NCBI RefSeq assembly: GCF_003544815.1
Contig: NZ_CP032100.1
Location: forward strand, 1,488,001 to 1,552,000
DNA from: Arcobacter suis CECT 7833
GTDB taxonomy: Bacteria > Campylobacterota > Campylobacteria > Campylobacterales > Arcobacteraceae
Length of the DNA: 64,000 nt
Direction of reading: 5' to 3'
The position numbers and the translations under genes are program-made. The notes under the pieces are model-generated. The model worked only from the letters and a program-made list of their open reading frames with translations. It was not told the origin of the DNA and did not search any database. Shown in pieces: positions 42,614 through 55,958 of this stretch (positions within the stretch are counted from its first letter, which is position 1; each line of letters begins with the position of its first letter).

Positions 42614-42753
42614 TTATTTTTTCAAATCAATTTCCATACTAAAATTTTTCAACTCAACATTTTCTCTTTTTACAAGATTTTCTTTAACTTGTATAAATCC
42701 AAACTTCACAAAAAATGGCTTTGCAGTGATACTTGCATCACTTTGATTTTATC
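42614..42753 (-). pseudogene. GNAT acetyltransferase C-terminal remnant
   Basis: About 140 bases matching the 3' end of the intact transglutaminase-GNAT gene at 47142 with roughly 85% identity by eye. In frame it reads SDASITAKPFFVKFGFIQV and then NLVKRENVELKNFSMEIDL, against KADASITAKPFFEKFGFKQI in the intact copy. A one-base deletion at about 42740 and an in-frame stop upstream kill it. No start remains. Confidence 0.8.
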
Positions 42754-42770
42754 CTTGAACTTTCGAGAAT

Positions 42771-43184
42771 TCAAGTTTTTTTACTTGCAAATCCTAAAAT
42801 ATAACCATTGATATCTTTGATATAAAACTCTCTTTGTCCATACCAAGTAGTATCAATTTCTTTGTAAATGCTTACTTTATCTTTTATTTTTAAATACAAT
42901 TCATCAACATTTTCAACATCAATATACAAAGTTAAAGAAGCTCCTATATTGTCAAAAAAGACTCCAACATCTTCTTTTAAACTTTCAACGCTTTGAAGCA
43001 TAATTGAAATATTGTCTTTATGTATCATTGCCCAAATATAATTTAATTCTTTTTTGATTTCTGTATCAAAAATAGTTTTTGACTCATCTACTAGCATTTG
43101 TAATTCAAAATCAAAATTTTCTTGATAGTATTTTATTGTTGAAGCTATATCATTAACAGCTAAATTCAAAGTTATTGATTTCAT
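42771..43184 (-). CDS. VOC-family (glyoxalase/bleomycin-resistance fold) protein
   Basis: 137 residues: LAVNDIASTIKYYQENFDFEL, AMIHKDNISIMLQ, LYIDVENVDELYLKI, DTTWYGQREFYIKDINGYILGF. A single pair of beta-alpha-beta-beta-beta modules forming a metal-binding or ligand-binding dimer. Specific substrate not predictable. Lies next to the GNAT remnant. Confidence 0.85.
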   Translation of the reverse strand: MKSITLNLAVNDIASTIKYYQENFDFELQMLVDESKTIFDTEIKKELNYIWAMIHKDNISIMLQSVESLKEDVGVFFDNIGASLTLYIDVENVDELYLKIKDKVSIYKEIDTTWYGQREFYIKDINGYILGFASKKT

Positions 43185-43245
43185 TATAAAAGTCCTTATG
43201 TTTTTAGAAATATATTATTTTTTGGTTTAAAGTGCGTATTATCAA

Positions 43246-43410
43246 TTAAGATTTTAATATTTTTAAATAATAATTTGCTTTTGGTTGAAACTCAAAATCT
43301 ACTTTTTTTAAATCAAAAAAAGAACTATATTCTTCAAAAGTTCTTCCCGTTATTGCTATGTTTTCTAGCTTTAGGGCATTTTGTTTTTCCTTTATGATTT
43401 TATATTTCAT
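43246..43410 (-). pseudogene. Short ORF, probable gene fragment
   Basis: A 54-codon open frame begins ATG at 43410, overlapping the end of the 943-residue gene by 11 bases. It reads KLENIAITGRTFEEYSSFFD and ends FQPKANYYLKILKS. The ITGRTFEEY stretch resembles the start of a methyltransferase-type protein, but the rest is missing. Could be a translated small protein or the stub of a gene cut by the neighbouring insertion. Confidence 0.35.
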
Positions 43411-46231
43411 CTATGAAATACCATTTTGGAAAATTAATTTTTCTTATTAGATATTGTTCAATTTCATTTTTCTTAATAATCTTATCTTCAACTAATTTTT
43501 CTAATACATTAATTTTTAATACTTGATTCAAAGAATCTAAAAATGAATTATTAAAGCAATTTTGAAATTTTGTAGAATAAGGAAACCCATTTTGTAAAAC
43601 TCCAAAAAAGTGATTTTCTTTATCATCCCATTCAAAATTATTCAAAACAACTTTATGACTATTAAAAGCAACTTTTGCAAAATTATTAGTTATTGAATTT
43701 TTAAATGCTTTTACATAAATTTTTTTATCATTTTTATCTAATAATTCACATAAAAAATTATTTTTATTAAATGATACAAAATTTAAATTATAATGATTAT
43801 TTGAAACTATTACAAAAATATTACTATCTATTTCATCATCTGCACTAGTCCAAGTATAATTATCATTAAAATTTTCAATTTTTAAATCAACTTTTTTATC
43901 CACAAGAATCGAATTATAGGTAAATCCTTTAATATTATCAGGACTTGAAACTTTATTATATTTTGAAAATGGTTTTATAAATTGATAAAAGTAGTGAATA
44001 TTTTGAAAATTTTCAATAATTACAAAATCATAATTATTTTCTGTTAAATATCCTAAAATTAGTTTTTGATTATTATCTTGAATAAATACATTTTTTATAA
44101 TTGCAATTTTATATGTTTTATCATCACTAAAACTATTTATTATGTCAATGAAACTTGAATATTGATAATTATATTGATTTGTTAGGACTATAATTTTTTT
44201 TAAGACTTGAAACATTTTTATATTAAAAATAAAATCTAATTCATTTTGAAAATTCAATATTTTTCCTCTTCCATCATTTAAGAAACTTAATAATTTGTTA
44301 TAGTCATAATTTTTTTCTATTAAATAATTTATAACTTCAGTAGATATAACCTCTTTTAATTTTTTCAATTCATCATCTTCATGTATTTGATTTCTTGATA
44401 CTTTTAATTTTAATTTATATTTTGAAGAAATATCAATTTCATATTTAATATTTTTAGAAAAATTTGGAATAATATTTATCCCTCCAATAACGAAATTTTG
44501 TTGAGAAAGTCTTGTATTTTTTAAATAATGCTGTCCATAACCATGTAATATTATATAACCGTTCAAATCTTCATTTTCATTGATATCAATTATCTCAATA
44601 TCGTTAATTAATTTATAATCATCAGGTACATCAATATTGCTTTTATCAAAAGAATAAGTTTTATCTTTCTTAATATCTTTTAAGACAATTGGAATAGAAA
44701 ATCTTGTCATATTGTTTTCTATAATTTCATTTATAGAAGAACTTTCTATTTTATCAAAAAAATCATCATGTAATTTTAATTTAATACTCGTCCCATTTTG
44801 TTTTTTTGTTGTAGGTAATTGCTCTATATATTTATCTTTTACATTCATGATAAAATGTATTGGATTGTATCCTTCTTTAAATGATTCAATTTCTATTGTA
44901 TCTGAAATCATAAAACAAGAAATAATTCCTATTCCAAAGTTACTTATTGGAGTAAAACTCATTCCCTCTTTTGTAAAATATTTACTTGTATAAAAACTTT
45001 TTCCTATTTTTATTACATAATTTTCAAAAGTTTCTACATCAATTCCTATACCATTATCAATTACTTCTAATGTCTTATTATCTGAATCATATTTGATAAA
45101 AACTTTTGGATTATAACTAGTAAATTCATCATCTTTTTTATCAAATATTTCTTTATAATATTTACAAGCATCATAAGAATTTTGAATTAACTCTCTAAGA
45201 AATATATCTGGCTTATCATATAATTCAGTCCCCATTAAGATATTAAGAACTTTTTCATAATCAAGATTTATTTCTAGCTTCGTATAAATATAACCATCTT
45301 CAATAATCTCATGTTTTACTGGTTCTTTTAATTCTAAATAATATTCATTTGAATTATTTTTGTTTAATAATTCCATACTGTCTTTTCGCTCAATTTCAAT
45401 CCATTCAATAAATTCTTCAACTTTTCTATGAATTTGAATTGATTTTGGCTTAGCATGATATTCTATAAAACTAGTAGAAAAATTACGTCCAGTTATTGAT
45501 TGATGCTTTAACCATTCTCCTTGACTAATAATATTCTTAATACCTATATGATGAAATAAATAAGGAGGTGTTCTAAAAATATCAAAATCTAAGATATCTC
45601 CAAGTCTTAATAAAATAGCTAAATATTGGACATTTACATATTTATCAACTATTAACAATTTTTGAGGAAACTTTTTTTCATCTTCTAAAAATTTAACAGG
45701 TTTCTCATGACTTAAAATTATATTTTTTATATAATCTGATAAATCAATCCCTTTAAATTCAAATTCAATTTTATATTCTGCAAAATGATTTTTAAAAACA
45801 TCTACATAATTACAACTTCTTTGTACATGTGTTCTTCTAATTAATTCTGTTAAGATTTCTTCATCTGAAACACTTGAATCAAATTCTCTTGTAAGTTTTA
45901 TAAATTCATCACTTTTTAATAACTCTTCTTTTTCTGCATTATTTATTACCATACCTATATCATGTAATAAAACTACATAAATTAATATTTGAATTTCAAC
46001 TATATTTAGATTTACATTTTGAGGAAGAATTTTACTAATAATATTTAATATTTCATAAGAGTGTTTTATATCATGATTAGTGTATTCGGGCATATTAGAT
46101 GGTATTCTATTTAATAAATCTGTTACAACTGGAACTAAATGACTTAGTATATTTGTGCTTATTATATTATTATTTTCTCCAAATTGTTCGACTTCTAACA
46201 ATTTTAATCTGTCCAAAAAATATTTTTCCAT
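43400..46231 (-). CDS. HD-domain + Hsp90-like ATPase protein (conflict/defence-like)
   Basis: 943 residues. N-terminal HD-type domain about 40-290: H57 (HDIKHS), H90-D91 (VLLHDIGMV), H175 (LSHEK) and a DILDFD motif at 212-217, resembling the HD domain found with caspases and in conflict systems. Then a GHKL/Hsp90-type ATPase about 320-520: N-box LRELIQNSYDAC (N350), G1 box VIDNGIGID (D391) and G2 box SNFGIGIISCF (431-439). About 420 C-terminal residues are not recognised. No membrane segment. Related HD/Hsp90-like proteins are associated with anti-phage conflict systems; that role is inferred here. Confidence 0.8.
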   Translation of the reverse strand: MEKYFLDRLKLLEVEQFGENNNIISTNILSHLVPVVTDLLNRIPSNMPEYTNHDIKHSYEILNIISKILPQNVNLNIVEIQILIYVVLLHDIGMVINNAEKEELLKSDEFIKLTREFDSSVSDEEILTELIRRTHVQRSCNYVDVFKNHFAEYKIEFEFKGIDLSDYIKNIILSHEKPVKFLEDEKKFPQKLLIVDKYVNVQYLAILLRLGDILDFDIFRTPPYLFHHIGIKNIISQGEWLKHQSITGRNFSTSFIEYHAKPKSIQIHRKVEEFIEWIEIERKDSMELLNKNNSNEYYLELKEPVKHEIIEDGYIYTKLEINLDYEKVLNILMGTELYDKPDIFLRELIQNSYDACKYYKEIFDKKDDEFTSYNPKVFIKYDSDNKTLEVIDNGIGIDVETFENYVIKIGKSFYTSKYFTKEGMSFTPISNFGIGIISCFMISDTIEIESFKEGYNPIHFIMNVKDKYIEQLPTTKKQNGTSIKLKLHDDFFDKIESSSINEIIENNMTRFSIPIVLKDIKKDKTYSFDKSNIDVPDDYKLINDIEIIDINENEDLNGYIILHGYGQHYLKNTRLSQQNFVIGGINIIPNFSKNIKYEIDISSKYKLKLKVSRNQIHEDDELKKLKEVISTEVINYLIEKNYDYNKLLSFLNDGRGKILNFQNELDFIFNIKMFQVLKKIIVLTNQYNYQYSSFIDIINSFSDDKTYKIAIIKNVFIQDNNQKLILGYLTENNYDFVIIENFQNIHYFYQFIKPFSKYNKVSSPDNIKGFTYNSILVDKKVDLKIENFNDNYTWTSADDEIDSNIFVIVSNNHYNLNFVSFNKNNFLCELLDKNDKKIYVKAFKNSITNNFAKVAFNSHKVVLNNFEWDDKENHFFGVLQNGFPYSTKFQNCFNNSFLDSLNQVLKINVLEKLVEDKIIKKNEIEQYLIRKINFPKWYFIDEI

Positions 46232-46491
46232 ATATAAAATCCTAATTTGTATTTTCTGATATTACTATTAAAGTAAACATTTTACCAAAAATAGAATTTA
46301 GTATCTATTTTTAATTATTTTCACTCCCAAAAATCCATGACTCTATTTTATGTATTTTTACTATCTTCAAGAATTTGAAAGATTATTTTAAAAGCTATTT
46401 TTATGTATTCAGTCTTTTGGATAGTTATTCATTATCTTAAAATATTTTTTTTAAGGTCGAATTTTTGACTTTTAAATTTCAAACTTTCCTA
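46232..46491. other. AT-rich intergenic stretch
   Basis: Nothing recognisable apart from upstream signals for the 943-residue gene; no open frame above 50 codons and no clear hairpin. Confidence 0.6.
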
Positions 46492-46776
46492 TTATAAGTT
46501 AAAATAAAATTCTTCAAAATCATTAATATCAGTTTGTTCTAATTTCAAATATTTCTCAATATATTCTTTAAAAATTCCACTTCTTAAAAAGTAATTAAAT
46601 ATTTCTTTATCTATATATTCTTTTTCAACTATTGTATGAAACAATCTTAGAATATCACTCAATTTTTCCGAATTATTAGATGAAATTAATATTTCAAAAA
46701 TCATTAAATATTCTTCTATTTTAAAAGATTTGCTTGTTTTATCAATAAAATATTCTGATTTAATTCTTAATTTCAT
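46492..46776 (-). CDS. Unknown 94-residue protein
   Basis: Acidic, helical protein (IEEYLMIFEILISSNNSEKLS, cited as EEYLMIFEIL; KLEQTDINDFEEFYF). No family recognised. It precedes the HD/Hsp90-like gene on the same strand by 260 bases and is divergent from an XRE regulator, so it may be part of the same accessory unit. Confidence 0.55.
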   Translation of the reverse strand: MKLRIKSEYFIDKTSKSFKIEEYLMIFEILISSNNSEKLSDILRLFHTIVEKEYIDKEIFNYFLRSGIFKEYIEKYLKLEQTDINDFEEFYFNL

Positions 46777-46792
46777 TTTTCTTATTCTTTAA

Positions 46793-46864
46793 TGATATAT
46801 GTATCGTTGAACAAATCATATCAAAGAGTATATTATCAACAACTTAAATATATATATCGTTGGG
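46793..46864. promoter_or_regulatory. Direct repeats before the XRE regulator
   Basis: TATGTATCGTTG (46798-46809) and TATATATCGTTG (46851-46862) differ by one base and lie 53 bases apart in the divergent gap between the 94-residue gene and the XRE gene. Probable autoregulatory sites covering both promoters. Confidence 0.45.
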
Positions 46865-46873
46865 AAATATAAA

Positions 46874-47119
46874 ATGAATGATTTAGAACTTGAAAATTAT
46901 GGTGAAAATATTTTGGATATTGTTTCTGCTAATGTAAAAAAATATAGAGAACAAAAAGGTTTAACACAAATGCAGTTGGCTTTAGAGATTGGATTAAGTG
47001 GTGGAGCATATCTTGGTCGAGCGGAAATCAGAAAAAATAATCACCATTTTAATATAAAACAACTTGCAAAAATTTCTAAGATTTTGGATGTTGATATTAA
47101 AAAGTTTTTTGAAGAATAA
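46874..47119 (+). CDS. XRE-family HTH regulator
   Basis: 81 residues: NVKKYREQKGLTQMQLALEI HTH, an unusual GLSGGAYLGRAEIRK recognition region and LAKISKILDVDIKKFF, typical of short Cro/C1-type proteins. Ends at a hairpin. Divergent from the 94-residue protein and probably the control gene of the HD/Hsp90-like accessory unit. Confidence 0.85.
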   Translation: MNDLELENYGENILDIVSANVKKYREQKGLTQMQLALEIGLSGGAYLGRAEIRKNNHHFNIKQLAKISKILDVDIKKFFEE

Positions 47120-47150
47120 TTTGAAGTCGAAATTTTCGACCTCAAATTTT
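47120..47150. terminator. Bidirectional hairpin terminator
   Basis: TTTGAAGTCGAAA (47120-47132) pairs with TTTCGACCTCAAA (47134-47146) with one mismatch, followed by TTTT; it serves the XRE gene and, on the minus strand, the transglutaminase-GNAT gene. Confidence 0.65.
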
Positions 47151-48173
47151 CAAATTCATTTCCATACTAAAATTTACCAACTCAATATTTTCTCTTTTAA
47201 CTAAATTTTCTTTGATTTGTTTAAATCCAAACTTCTCAAAAAAAGGTTTTGCAGTAATGCTTGCATCTGCTTTGATTTTATCTATATTTTTGTTTTTTGC
47301 AAGTTCTAGAATATGATTTAAAAGTAGTTTTCCTATTCCACAATTTTGATATTTAAAATGAATATAAAAACAATCAATATACCCATCATAATATTCACAA
47401 AATCCTACAATTTTATCTTCAATCATACATAGATATGGTTTTGATTTTTCAAATCTTTTTTCCCAAATCTCTAAATCATAATTTGGATTTGCCCAAGCGT
47501 TTAGTTGCTCTTTTGAGTAGTCTTTTTTATTAATATTATGAACTGTATCTATAAAAAGTTCAACTATTTGTTTTAAATATTTTTTATCATAATTAACTAT
47601 AAAAAATGAAACATCAGGAAAAATATTTATCATTTCATCATAAGTTTTATTTTTAGTCAAACTTTCAACTACAACATCCAAAGGTTTTGAGTAAATTTCT
47701 GTTAAATCAAACTCATCTTTTTCTAATTTGAAAGCTAGTTCTTCAAAAGGTGGATTAAACTGTGCATTTACACCTTTTTTATTTCCTCTTGCATCTATTT
47801 TATACCAACCATAATTTTTCAAATAAATTGCATTTAAACCATGTAAACAATAAATATCTTTTTTATATTCACTACAAGATAATCTTTGATAACAAAACCC
47901 AGCAGGAATGCCATTTGCTCTTAAAAGTGCAGCTAAAAGATGTGATTTTGCATAACACCAACCCGTCTTATATTTTAAAACATCACTAGATATACAAGTT
48001 GTAATTTCATCTTTAAAATCTCCACTATGGTGGATATTATCTCTTACATAAATAAAACAGTTTTTTGCTATTTCTTCATCTGTTATACAATCTTTTGATA
48101 ACTCATGTGCAAGGTTTTGAATATCAGGATTTGTAAAATCTATAACTTGTGTCTCTTCTAAATACTTTTTCAT
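47142..48173 (-). CDS. Transglutaminase-like domain fused to GNAT acetyltransferase
   Basis: 343 residues. Residues 1-185: transglutaminase-like cysteine-protease fold with catalytic C73 (TGWCYAKSHLLAALLRANG, cited as GWCYAKS), H111 (CLHGLNAIY) and D127 (YKIDARGNK). Residues 190-343: GNAT domain with the acetyl-CoA loop YQNCGIGKLLLNH and SITAKPFFEKFGF. The fusion suggests a two-step modification, but substrates are unknown. Overlaps the chorismate-mutase-like gene by 4 bases. Confidence 0.85.
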   Translation of the reverse strand: MKKYLEETQVIDFTNPDIQNLAHELSKDCITDEEIAKNCFIYVRDNIHHSGDFKDEITTCISSDVLKYKTGWCYAKSHLLAALLRANGIPAGFCYQRLSCSEYKKDIYCLHGLNAIYLKNYGWYKIDARGNKKGVNAQFNPPFEELAFKLEKDEFDLTEIYSKPLDVVVESLTKNKTYDEMINIFPDVSFFIVNYDKKYLKQIVELFIDTVHNINKKDYSKEQLNAWANPNYDLEIWEKRFEKSKPYLCMIEDKIVGFCEYYDGYIDCFYIHFKYQNCGIGKLLLNHILELAKNKNIDKIKADASITAKPFFEKFGFKQIKENLVKRENIELVNFSMEMNLKI

Positions 48174-52311: not shown

Positions 52312-52332
52312 AGGTGGGAAATAAGTGGGAAA
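52312..52332 (+). repeat. 21-bp element-end repeat, left copy
   Basis: Contains GTGGGAAATAAGTGGGAAA, an internal tandem of GTGGGAAA, and overlaps the integrase start. An identical 21-bp copy lies at 62802-62822 near the right end, same orientation. Possible integrase or excisionase arm-binding site. Confidence 0.7.
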
Positions 52333-53455
52333 TATTGAAGCAAAAACAATCAATTATTCTAAAAGATTTAATACCAAATTTAATGGTGTTTTTTATAGAG
52401 AATCTATAACAAATGATAAGCTAGATAAAACATATTATATCAGATACAAAGATAAAGACAATAAAGATAAAGAGATAAAAATAGGCAAATATTCTGAGGG
52501 ATTTAGAGAAAATTATTGCAATCAATTAAGAAATGAAATTATAACAAAACAAAGAATTGGAGAAGAACCTCCAGCTGCAGCAAGAAATAAAAAGAGAACA
52601 ATTTTATCAATTGAAACTATTTCAGAAAACTATTTTTCTGAAAGAAAAGAGGGACAAAATAAAGGGACAGATAAATCAAATTATAAAAACTATATATTAC
52701 CCTACTTTAAAACTCTTGATTTTGAAAACATATCTAAAGATGATATACAAGTATTTACAAATCAATTAAAGAAAACAAAATCATTAATAAAAAAAGACCT
52801 TATTTCAGATAAAACTATAAACAATATTTTAAACTTTTTAAAAGCTCTGATTAAATACGCATTTAGAAATGACTATATCAAAAATGACTTTTCAAAATAT
52901 ATTCAATTATTAGAGATAGATAATGCTCGAGAAAGATTTTTAACTAAAGATGAGATAAAACTATTGTTTGAATATTCAAAAGATGATGAGACCCTTTATT
53001 TGCTTTTTAAACTAGCATTAAATACTGGAGGAAGATTAGCAACACTATTAAATATTCATAAAAAAGATATTGATTTTACACATGATTTAATAACACTAAA
53101 AGATTTTAAAAATAATAGTACATATAAAGCTTTTTTAACAGATGATTTAAAAGAGCTTCTTGAGAAAAGAGTAAATTCTTTAAAACCAAATGATATGCTT
53201 TTTACATCAAATCCAGAAAGAAGATTAAGAGCTAAGTTAGACGAACTATTTAACAAAGACATTGATGATAATGATAGAAAGAATAAAATTGTATTTCACT
53301 CTTTAAGACATACTTTTGCAAGTCATTTAGCTATCAATGGAACACCTATCTTCACAATTCAAAAGCTTATGAACCATAGAGATATAAGAATGACTTTGAG
53401 ATATGCTAAATTAAGTCCTGATAGTGGGAGAGAAGCTGTTCTGAATTTATATTAA
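52325..53455 (+). CDS. int: Tyrosine-type site-specific integrase
   Basis: 376 residues. N-terminal arm-binding part (YYIRYKDKDNKDKEIKIGKY), SAM-like core-binding domain about 95-195 and catalytic domain with R237 (LNTGGRLATL), H325-x-x-R328 (FHSLRHTFASH), H351 (LMNHRDI) and nucleophile Y360 (MTLRYAKLS). GTG start, with AGGTG about 9 bases ahead. It integrates and excises the element at tRNA-Glu and lies 136 bases inside attL. Confidence 0.93.
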   Translation: MGNIEAKTINYSKRFNTKFNGVFYRESITNDKLDKTYYIRYKDKDNKDKEIKIGKYSEGFRENYCNQLRNEIITKQRIGEEPPAAARNKKRTILSIETISENYFSERKEGQNKGTDKSNYKNYILPYFKTLDFENISKDDIQVFTNQLKKTKSLIKKDLISDKTINNILNFLKALIKYAFRNDYIKNDFSKYIQLLEIDNARERFLTKDEIKLLFEYSKDDETLYLLFKLALNTGGRLATLLNIHKKDIDFTHDLITLKDFKNNSTYKAFLTDDLKELLEKRVNSLKPNDMLFTSNPERRLRAKLDELFNKDIDDNDRKNKIVFHSLRHTFASHLAINGTPIFTIQKLMNHRDIRMTLRYAKLSPDSGREAVLNLY

Positions 53456-53542
53456 TAATAAAGAATTAACTGGTAATACATTTACTTCAATTAATTCAAT
53501 GGAAGAATAAAAAAATATTGTATAAATTTTATTGAAAAAAAA

Positions 53543-53585
53543 TAACTATTAAGTGATGGAAGTCTTACTTCATCACAAATAGTTA
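53543..53585. other. Large imperfect hairpin downstream of the integrase
   Basis: Outer stem TAACTATT/AATAGTTA and inner stem GTGATGGAAG/CTTCATCAC with one bulged G. No T run follows, so it is not a clean intrinsic terminator; it could be an RNA-stability or att-associated structure. Confidence 0.4.
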
Positions 53586-53624
53586 CAACTAGACACTATT
53601 TTAGATTTTGTTGTTTTGATTTAT

Positions 53625-54476
53625 TTAAGACAGATTTTGCTTAAAAATTTGTTGAGATAATTTAAGCATTATTGCCTCTCGATAATCTTCTATATAATAT
53701 TTTTCATTATCTAAAATCATTTTATTAAAATAAAATTCTGCTCTTAGAATATTATCATTAAATTTAAATGCTTTTATATCATTAGTAATTTTATATTTTA
53801 TTTCACTATTTAACATAAAACCTATAGCATTACTATGATTCCCATTTGAAATAATTAAAGTATTAATATCTTTATAATACCTTCCACAATGGTTTTTAAA
53901 ATCTTGATTAAATCCTCTATTTGTAATTAAACTATATGTTTCTATACCCCTCTTTTTAGTCAATCTATCAATAGACCAAGGACAACTAATAATATGTGGA
54001 TTTAAAATTTCTTGGATAGAGTCATCAGGTTCAGAAATTAAACTATACATAAAGAATTTTACATTTTTTAATTCTTTTTCTATAGTATCTTTAGGTATAT
54101 ATGTTTTTAAAATATTTCCAATTTGAATATATTTCAAAAAATTTGAAAATAATATTTGATTATATTCATTATTTTCCGTTAAAAAATGATTTGTAATTTG
54201 ATTAAATATAATTTCTTTGTCTTTTTTTTCAAATATTTCTTTATCTTTATCAAAAAAATACCTAATTTCATCTATATTATGAGAATATTCTTTTTTAAAT
54301 ATTTCATCATCTATTAAAAAATCAAATTTTCTTGATAAAGTCCTTATACTATTTTCTTTTAAATTAATATCTTTTACATATACTAATTTAAAATCATTTT
54401 CCCAAAGAACTTTAACAAATTTTTTAATAAAATTTAATTTTAAAGTTTTTATCTTTTTATCAATATAGTCAATCAT
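53625..54476 (-). CDS. DUF6710-like protein
   Basis: 283 residues. The segment NPHIISCPWSIDRL followed by LIISNGNHSNAIGFML resembles the NPW...R and GNHS..G pattern of DUF6710, found in mobile elements and defence neighbourhoods. The N-terminal half is a charged helical region without matches. No signal or membrane segment. Cargo of the element, placed between integrase and the toxin/antitoxin pair. Confidence 0.55.
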   Translation of the reverse strand: MIDYIDKKIKTLKLNFIKKFVKVLWENDFKLVYVKDINLKENSIRTLSRKFDFLIDDEIFKKEYSHNIDEIRYFFDKDKEIFEKKDKEIIFNQITNHFLTENNEYNQILFSNFLKYIQIGNILKTYIPKDTIEKELKNVKFFMYSLISEPDDSIQEILNPHIISCPWSIDRLTKKRGIETYSLITNRGFNQDFKNHCGRYYKDINTLIISNGNHSNAIGFMLNSEIKYKITNDIKAFKFNDNILRAEFYFNKMILDNEKYYIEDYREAIMLKLSQQIFKQNLS

Positions 54477-54583
54477 TAATTATTCCTTTTTTTTAATTAA
54501 AGAATAATAACCAGATAACTTTTTTTTGCTATTAAAAATTTAAATAATTATGATTCATTAATAAATAAACAACTAATAATTTT

Positions 54584-54606
54584 AAATTTATATCACTAAA
54601 ATACTT
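54584..54606. repeat. 23-bp direct repeat, left of the toxin/antitoxin pair
   Basis: Begins AAATTTATATCACTAAAATA and is identical over 23 bases to 56160-56182. The two copies bracket exactly the AbiEii-like toxin and its antitoxin plus their promoter region. Confidence 0.8.
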
Positions 54607-54684
54607 ACATACTATAAAAGTTTTAACATAAGATTTCAATACAGTACATCTAGTTAACTTTGTTCAATAATTAAATACTGTTTT

Positions 54685-55395
54685 CTAATCATATGAATAA
54701 AGTTTCTCTAATAATACTTCATAAATATATTTTTCTATTTCAGCTCTATACCATTCATAAGATTTTGGATTTTTTACTAAAGTATTAATACCTTCATCAT
54801 TTGGTCTTTTATAAAATTGAGTTGTAGCTTGTATTTTTTTATATAGATTATCAATGCTATAAGTAATATTATTTTCTAAATAATTATTTATAAAATCATT
54901 TGCATTAATATGCTTATTTGATAATATGAAATGAATATCAAATAAATCTCTATATTTTTTTCTATTCCAAAATGCCATAGTTTTCATGTAAATTATAGTA
55001 TCAAGTGATGCTATTTTTAAAGTTGAGTTTTCATAGTAGCTATATTTATCTTTTTCCCAAATTGATATTTCAGATAAATTAAAAGGTGGTGTAAAAAATT
55101 CTACTTTCACACCATTTAACATAAATTTCATATAACTATCATTTATATCTTCTCCATCATTGGTTACATAATCTTCTATTGTTGGGTCATGTTCTAACTT
55201 TACAGCATTATATTTATTCATCATATCTTCAATTTCTTTACGAGGTAGTTCAAGTGATGCAAAATCTAAATCTTCTGACAATCTATGATTTATAATATGG
55301 CTTAATGCTGTTCCTCCAACAAATTTAAAATCATTTTTTATAAAAAATTCATCATTCATTATCAATTCTAAAGTATCTTTTGTTTTTTTTAGCAT
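54685..55395 (-). CDS. AbiEii-type nucleotidyltransferase toxin
   Basis: 236 residues. Nucleotidyltransferase signature FVGGTALSHIINHRLSEDLDF (GG..L, then D-x-D at about 42-44), followed by FFTPPFNLSEISIW, a conserved LDTIIYMKTMAFWNRKKYRDLFDI region. AbiEii enzymes add nucleotides to tRNA or other targets and cause abortive infection or growth arrest. It starts on the last base of the antitoxin stop. Confidence 0.88.
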   Translation of the reverse strand: MLKKTKDTLELIMNDEFFIKNDFKFVGGTALSHIINHRLSEDLDFASLELPRKEIEDMMNKYNAVKLEHDPTIEDYVTNDGEDINDSYMKFMLNGVKVEFFTPPFNLSEISIWEKDKYSYYENSTLKIASLDTIIYMKTMAFWNRKKYRDLFDIHFILSNKHINANDFINNYLENNITYSIDNLYKKIQATTQFYKRPNDEGINTLVKNPKSYEWYRAEIEKYIYEVLLEKLYSYD

Positions 55396-55958
55396 TATCT
55401 TTTCCTTGTAATATATTTAGCATGTTGATTAAAAGATTTTAATAATTTTATATCTTTTTGTTTTAGTATATATGGTTTAAGTCTATCAATACCAAAATAT
55501 TTAATAAGTAACATTAATCTTTTTTCATCCCAATTAAAAAGTACAATACTGATAAAATTTGGAATTTCATAAACATGACCATTTTCTACACTATAAAATA
55601 GTTCATTACCAAATACCTCTTTATCTAAAATTATTTGTTTTTGTTCTGCTTGTATAATTGGTTTTAAATATATATTCTCATTATTAGCATTTTTATTACT
55701 TGAAGTTCTTTCTTTTTGTTCATTAAATTCAAATCCATCTAAAAATCCTAAAAATTGTTCTTCCTTTTTTAATTTTATTAAAATTTGAACAAAATTCTCA
55801 AATGAAATTTTTCCTGTTTGTTCAAAACTTTTATAAGTAGCATATTTAATTTCTATAAAATCTGAGAACTCTTCTTGCGTTAAATCTAAAGCAATTCGTT
55901 CTGCTCGTATTTTCTTACTTGCTAATTTTAAAATTTTAAGTGTAATATTTAAAATCAT
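55395..55958 (-). CDS. XRE-type antitoxin of the AbiEii-like toxin
   Basis: 187 residues. HTH SKKIRAERIALDLTQEEFSD and FIEIKYATYKSFEQTG in the first 60 residues, then a linker and a C-terminal domain (FGNELFYSVENGHVYEIPNF, cited as ENGHVYEIPNF). Upstream of, and overlapping, the toxin gene in the usual antitoxin-toxin order. Twin 25-bp repeats in the promoter are probable operators. Confidence 0.82.
   Translation of the reverse strand: MILNITLKILKLASKKIRAERIALDLTQEEFSDFIEIKYATYKSFEQTGKISFENFVQILIKLKKEEQFLGFLDGFEFNEQKERTSSNKNANNENIYLKPIIQAEQKQIILDKEVFGNELFYSVENGHVYEIPNFISIVLFNWDEKRLMLLIKYFGIDRLKPYILKQKDIKLLKSFNQHAKYITRKR

Follow-up and report, generated by a model that had tools for sequence, protein, structure and literature searches.

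That a GHKL ATPase can be coupled to a catalytic domain in phage defence is known from VcSduA, a GHKL ATPase-nuclease protein whose proven activity against phages is lost in ATPase and nuclease mutants (PMC12137116) and which, by analogy, may serve as a validated precedent for the protein described here. Also known is HD-CE, as a Pfam domain whose entry only names it. In the literature searched - most subscription journals lay outside its scope - we found no paper on HD-CE or on an HD-Hsp90 defence protein, PMC9519451 mentions neither Hsp90 nor an HD domain, and for the combination of an HD domain with a complete Hsp90 scaffold we found no PADLOC model either. Precisely this combination is encoded by Arcobacter suis CECT 7833 (genome of 2.64 Mb) within a stretch of 64,000 nucleotides (contig NZ_CP032100.1, positions 1,488,001 to 1,552,000), which we refer to as the window and whose own numbering is used throughout. 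An earlier note on positions 43246-47119 had proposed one accessory unit, made up of an HD plus Hsp90-like ATPase protein, a 94-residue protein and an XRE regulator with direct-repeat operators, and set between duplicated gene ends; open reading frames (ORFs of 943, 94, 81 and 54 residues), profiles and repeats bear out each of these parts, though not, as we argue below, their unity. Our preferred reading, on which we are evenly divided, is that the 943-residue HD-Hsp90 protein is a single-gene, horizontally acquired, ATP-gated HD effector of phage or plasmid defence. Its gene and parts are as follows.

43400..46231, minus strand: HD-CE/Hsp90-like ATPase protein, 943 residues, the actual accessory gene at the locus.
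45293..46231, minus strand: HD phosphohydrolase domain, residues 1-313 (HD-CE, PF24391).
44657..45280, minus strand: Hsp90-type N-terminal ATPase, residues 318-525.
43403..44656, minus strand: Hsp90 middle-domain fold and variable, partly Hsp90 C-domain-like tail, residues 526-943.

The HD-CE profile covers residues 47-281 (E-value (E) 2.6e-45; 155.6 bits against a Pfam cut-off of 27), which places the protein in this family by the profile's own cut-off. Its metal ligands (H57, H90, D91, H135, H175, D212) are invariant in 48 of 48 aligned relatives and so are H53, R132 and R209 of the same domain. The AlphaFold model of the HD domain, with a predicted local distance difference test score (pLDDT) of 95, finds its best structural matches among cyclic-nucleotide phosphodiesterases (PDEs; Z 12-13.2, about 230 residues aligned, root-mean-square deviation (rmsd) 4-5), PDE1B for instance at Z 13.2 with 233 residues aligned and an rmsd of 4.6, while HD domains of PPX/GppA reach Z 12-13; the HNxxH...HD stretch adds a weak profile match to PDEs (E 7e-4), and a viral structure library returned nothing below E 0.001 for the HD domain. 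The model thereby supports an HD part that would be a metal-dependent phosphohydrolase with a fold nearest to cyclic-nucleotide PDEs. Since middling Z scores come easily to helical folds and the PDB holds many PDEs, we take these matches as support for an HD phosphohydrolase but not for a particular substrate. The N-terminal HD domain is likely the catalytic effector of the protein.

As for the ATPase, Pfam HATPase_c_3 matches residues 345-478 (E 1.2e-7) and the NCBIfam HtpG model residues 318-521 (E 1.2e-29), the latter with 103 bits, far under the 371-bit cut-off, so that by this equivalog test the protein is not HtpG. All Hsp90-type motifs - the E/N/D of the N-box, DxGxG of G1, GxG of G2 and the T motif - are nonetheless present, with E347, N351, D354, D392-N-G394-x-G396, G433-x-G435 and T481 invariant in 48/48 relatives. 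Nor does the likeness end with the ATPase. A profile built from the 48 relatives matches HtpG (E 3.7e-34) and runs along full-length Hsp90 chains, and the full-length AlphaFold model (pLDDT 85, predicted template modelling score 0.69) can be superposed on full-length TRAP1, Hsc82 and HtpG, the alignment starting at residue 322 and reaching about 774, or about 914 in some entries. These matches have Z 21.8-24.6 over 318-421 residues with rmsd mostly 3.6-6 (TRAP1 4z1i: Z 24.6, 318 aligned, rmsd 3.6; Hsc82 6xld: Z 23.6, 412 aligned, rmsd 5.5), and Foldseek gives E as low as 4e-19 against Hsp90s. The middle-domain fold spans about residues 530-774, and Arg613 occupies the position of the catalytic Arg of the Hsp90 middle domain in 37 of 48 relatives, seven of the others being alignment gaps. 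Since structure matches and profile both run along Hsp90, the C-terminal 420 residues, which the earlier note held to be uncharacterised, are mostly Hsp90 middle region; in the model, residues 526-943 would be largely a middle/C-terminal-like scaffold with a variable, partly C-domain-like tail. Of the suggestion that this C terminus is an effector or a sensor, the former half has lost its ground with the scaffold, while the latter survives in that the variable stretch of ~290 residues at the end could act as a sensor. Sequence conservation across the 48 relatives drops steeply beyond about residue 650.

The other 30 species of the genus all lack the HD-Hsp90 gene (1/31 including the window genome), and HD-CE occurs in eight of 397 genomes of the class; one relative in the class has HD-CE alone without the Hsp90 part. 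Beyond the class, one conservative scan of 84,980 species genomes found at least 372 relatives, the best 80 of which come from many bacterial phyla plus archaea. The window protein falls in a clade of five (support 100/99) with proteins from a Campylobacterales member (58% over the core), Sulfuricurvum, Hymenobacter and an Endomicrobiaceae genome; the clade thus spans Campylobacterota, Bacteroidota and Elusimicrobiota, a sign that the gene has been passed horizontally between these three phyla. Relatives sit on plasmids, beside integrases (the Sulfuricurvum copy is near one) and on viral contigs. In Campylobacterota, a shared element composed of a 437/446-residue gene of unknown kind and a tyrosine integrase (L022:14530-17212, L019:13335-15992; next to tRNA-Leu in the latter) carries HD-CE-Hsp90 and variable partners. 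The HD-CE protein that stands alone has its gene in an operon-like cluster (L020:6497-11134), along with genes for a DNA methyltransferase-like, an ORC-CDC6-like ATPase and a CARF-like protein.

In their neighbourhoods, too, relatives keep company with mobile elements and defence-type genes. The closest relative has a YhcG PDDEXK nuclease gene (a PADLOC candidate) 22 bp downstream. The Arcobacter butzleri plasmid copy, split into ORFs of 404 and 520 residues, has a Shedu nuclease gene within about 6 kb and a restriction S subunit nearby, and plasmid copies lie near an AAA ATPase + UvrD pair, HsdR/HsdS, AbiEii and integrases; at four of five plasmid loci inspected, a gene of the restriction, Shedu, AbiEii or Gabija-like kind lies within 9 kb, 'Gabija-like' being the AAA ATPase + UvrD pair as read from annotation. 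Among 114 genes adjoining ~90 relatives we count AAA_21 ten times, SMC_N nine, AAA_23 eight, AAA_13 five and AAA_15 four, whereas no family exceeds two among 80 control genes more than 6.5 kb away. PADLOC models matched number 293 for adjacent versus 36 for distant genes. This enrichment in AAA_21/SMC_N/AAA_13/AAA_15, OLD-like and restriction families is indicative rather than a statistic, as the control set has fewer genes and was not matched for size. Because the family is widespread and often lies beside anti-virus genes, the HD-Hsp90 protein is probably a bacterial defence protein. Presence/absence and neighbourhood survey together describe an accessory gene with a defence link, and not a core gene of all relatives devoid of one; in both respects the earlier note, which had suspected an accessory conflict component, was right, the defence link applying at the level of the family.

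How might such a protein work? Under our preferred reading, it would dimerise via its Hsp90 middle/C-terminal part, and an infection signal may bind either to the clamp surface or to the variable segment at the C terminus (about 650-943). ATP-dependent closure of the clamp would then set the HD domains in an active arrangement, whereupon the HD site might cleave a nucleotide or phosphodiester substrate and so stop phage or plasmid propagation. Several observations weigh against an HD effector of defence. The modelled HD domain resembles PDEs to a moderate degree, from which no substrate follows; the 943-residue protein matches no PADLOC-DB 2.0.0 family at E <= 1; and the literature searched yielded no experiment on any family member. 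No defence gene adjoins the window copy, the nearest, of AbiEii type, being ~8.5 kb off and beyond a separate integrase, and some relatives have ordinary neighbours, such as GroEL in Chryseobacterium, while the Pseudoalteromonas plasmid copy has no known defence gene nearby. Finally, the control genes are shorter on average than the adjacent ones, which inflates the contrast between the two sets.

The strongest competitor sees the HD-Hsp90 protein not as the effector itself but as a regulator or antitoxin-like half that helps a separate effector to fold, licenses it or holds it in check - a predicted ADP-ribosyltransferase (ART), a nuclease or an SMC-type ATPase - in which case the window copy would be an orphan whose partner has been lost, or would work with one encoded elsewhere. 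Such a partner may be at hand in three relatives, where HD-CE-Hsp90 is adjoined by the gene for a protein of ~195 residues (L013:14744-15319, L016:11709-12296, L019:8260-8865) with invariant R76, S115-x-S117 and E164-x-E166 (L016 numbering), that is the R-S-E signature of ARTs, and this gene occurs in only two of the 397 class genomes and one plasmid, each time beside HD-CE-Hsp90. Among the relatives of ~810 residues, about a dozen have an ATPase gene directly upstream at operon distance. The neighbour is therefore a predicted ART by its signature residues, but its matches to the ART/ADPrib_exo_Tox profiles are weak (E 0.005-0.07) and under the Pfam cut-offs, and that to the Vis ART is weaker still (E 1). 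The ART-like gene has no match in the window genome and none in viral contigs, clade mates that we examined lack it as well, and neighbours differ from one relative to the next. In the HD site conservation is complete, which one would expect if the protein were an enzyme and not purely a chaperone. We regard a regulator half as a possibility of perhaps half the weight that we give to an HD effector.

Less likely still, to our minds, is a stress or housekeeping factor: a specialised chaperone of Hsp90 type, equipped with a domain that degrades nucleotides, which has been spread on mobile DNA by chance and plays no part in defence. While the Hsp90-type ATPase and the GroEL/GroES or Clp-type genes beside some relatives would suit it, such a role sits poorly with a distribution as patchy as eight of 397 class genomes and one of 31 in the genus, with horizontal spread across phyla, with locations on plasmids, beside integrases and on viral contigs, and with neighbours of ATPase and restriction type. 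Besides, the same genome encodes elsewhere a second Hsp90-like ORF of 640 residues, presumably HtpG.

The last alternative, one XRE-controlled system of three genes filling 43246-47119, brings us to the remaining features of the locus.

43246..43410, minus strand: 54-residue ORF, relic of a methyltransferase-like gene.
46305..46426, minus strand: relic of the 3' end of an ORF6N-domain gene.
46492..46776, minus strand: 94-residue protein, HD-GYP-tail-like, resident gene.
46796..46862, plus strand: two operator-like direct-repeat sites, between the 94-residue and XRE genes.
46874..47119, plus strand: XRE-family regulator, 81 residues, resident gene.
42619..42739, plus strand: left copy of a 121-bp direct repeat, relic of a GNAT gene 3' end.
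47147..47267, plus strand: right copy of this repeat, 3' end of an intact transglutaminase-GNAT gene.
42628..47599, strand not applicable: hotspot interval, 4.97 kb here versus ~0.45 kb in the relative G029.

Although the 94-residue and HD-Hsp90 genes share a strand, with 260 bp and no predicted terminator between them, so that read-through from an XRE-side promoter is possible, a three-gene system is largely refuted and in our view highly improbable, as G004, G006 and G001 keep the 94-residue/XRE pair with its operators but have no HD-Hsp90 gene, and as the remains of an ORF6N gene lie between the 94-residue and HD-Hsp90 genes in the window. It is in this respect that the earlier note erred: the 94-residue protein, the XRE regulator and the operators are resident. 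In all three relatives the pair is adjacent at the same locus, XRE identity to the window copy being 97.5% in G004 and 91% in G006 and that of the 94-residue protein 77% in G004; the operator repeats are likewise kept, the closest copy being in G004, where different genes stand downstream of the pair. In the window the repeat (TATATRTATCGTTG at 46796-46809 and 46849-46862) has a chance expectation of 0.03 across the whole stretch, and two copies were seen in none of 100 shuffles. The XRE regulator exceeds the Pfam cut-off for HTH_3, and a promoter scan gave no more matches than shuffles did. Viewed across genomes, the divergent pair (46492-47119; L136, L137, L138) thus combines conserved direct-repeat operators with downstream genes that vary, and it is possibly a resident regulator of the hotspot. 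The 94-residue protein is similar to the final ~70 residues of HD-GYP-type proteins in the genus, and we prefer such a tail-like fragment to a TrpR-like regulator, a candidate that we rejected for its sub-threshold matches only.

On the other side of the HD-Hsp90 gene, the start and end of the 54-residue ORF match the start and end of one ~228-residue methyltransferase-like ORF in G011, a name that is based on motifs and not on a profile scan. By this comparison, the ORF is an internally deleted methyltransferase-like gene with its N- and C-terminal ends fused, and as a gene relic it was rejected as a functional partner. The stretch at 46305-46426 is the decayed 3' end of an ORF6N gene that is intact at the same site in G004. 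With a methyltransferase-like relic on one side and an ORF6N relic on the other, the HD-Hsp90 gene lies between two relics and, judged by its sequence context, is lone cargo at the locus rather than part of a multi-gene unit.

The site itself appears as a genus-wide cargo hotspot (42628-47599; L136, L137, L138, L145), flanked by a 148-residue/hydrolase gene pair and the transglutaminase-GNAT gene. In G029 it is nearly empty, identity being 98% up to position 42627 of the window and 91% again from 47600. G004 has genes of unknown kind for 488 and 542 residues there, besides an ORF6N gene that matches the PADLOC candidate PDC-S05, and G006 a 1110-residue gene of unknown kind; these large genes are further defence candidates. 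The two copies of the GNAT 3' end (42619-42739 and 47147-47267) form a direct repeat of 121 nt with 87% identity and could aid homologous exchange. Farther along, at 52325-55958, an integrase-like gene precedes two others, one for a toxin of AbiEii type and one of XRE/AbiEi type; a separate integrative element probably begins here, some 5-9 kb from the HD-Hsp90 gene.

A bolder version of the HD effector that we prefer, which we put forward tentatively and consider rather doubtful, is a distinct and widespread prokaryotic immune class where the complete Hsp90 clamp would both sense infection and, driven by ATP, switch a PDE-like HD enzyme, linked in some cases to a dedicated ART. If true, it would form a prokaryotic counterpart of chaperone-gated immunity, and in both bacteria and archaea Hsp90-type ATPases would switch immunity directly, the relatives numbering at least 372. 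Current defence annotation misses the family member in the window, the HD domain and the ART-like partner offer clear and testable active sites, and the hotspot is a place to seek further unknown defence genes in the genus.

We also compared the 943-residue protein with known systems. Tiamat, taken as a lead, came to nothing, PADLOC including its TmtA model being without a match, and PHROGs gave nothing useful. Class I cyclic-nucleotide PDEs and the HD domains of PPX/GppA are the nearest solved folds to the HD part and yet only 10-15% identical to it. With HtpG, TRAP1 and Hsc82 the protein shares the N-terminal ATPase motifs and the middle-domain fold over 322-774, partly to 914; unlike these chaperones it is fused to an HD domain, ends in ~290 variable residues and is accessory rather than core. 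VcSduA resembles it in being a single gene in which a GHKL ATPase and a clamp-like middle region are joined to a catalytic domain. That domain, however, is in VcSduA a C-terminal PD-(D/E)xK nuclease, which has no match in the 943-residue protein at E <= 1, whereas the catalytic part of the HD-Hsp90 protein would be an HD phosphohydrolase at its N-terminus.

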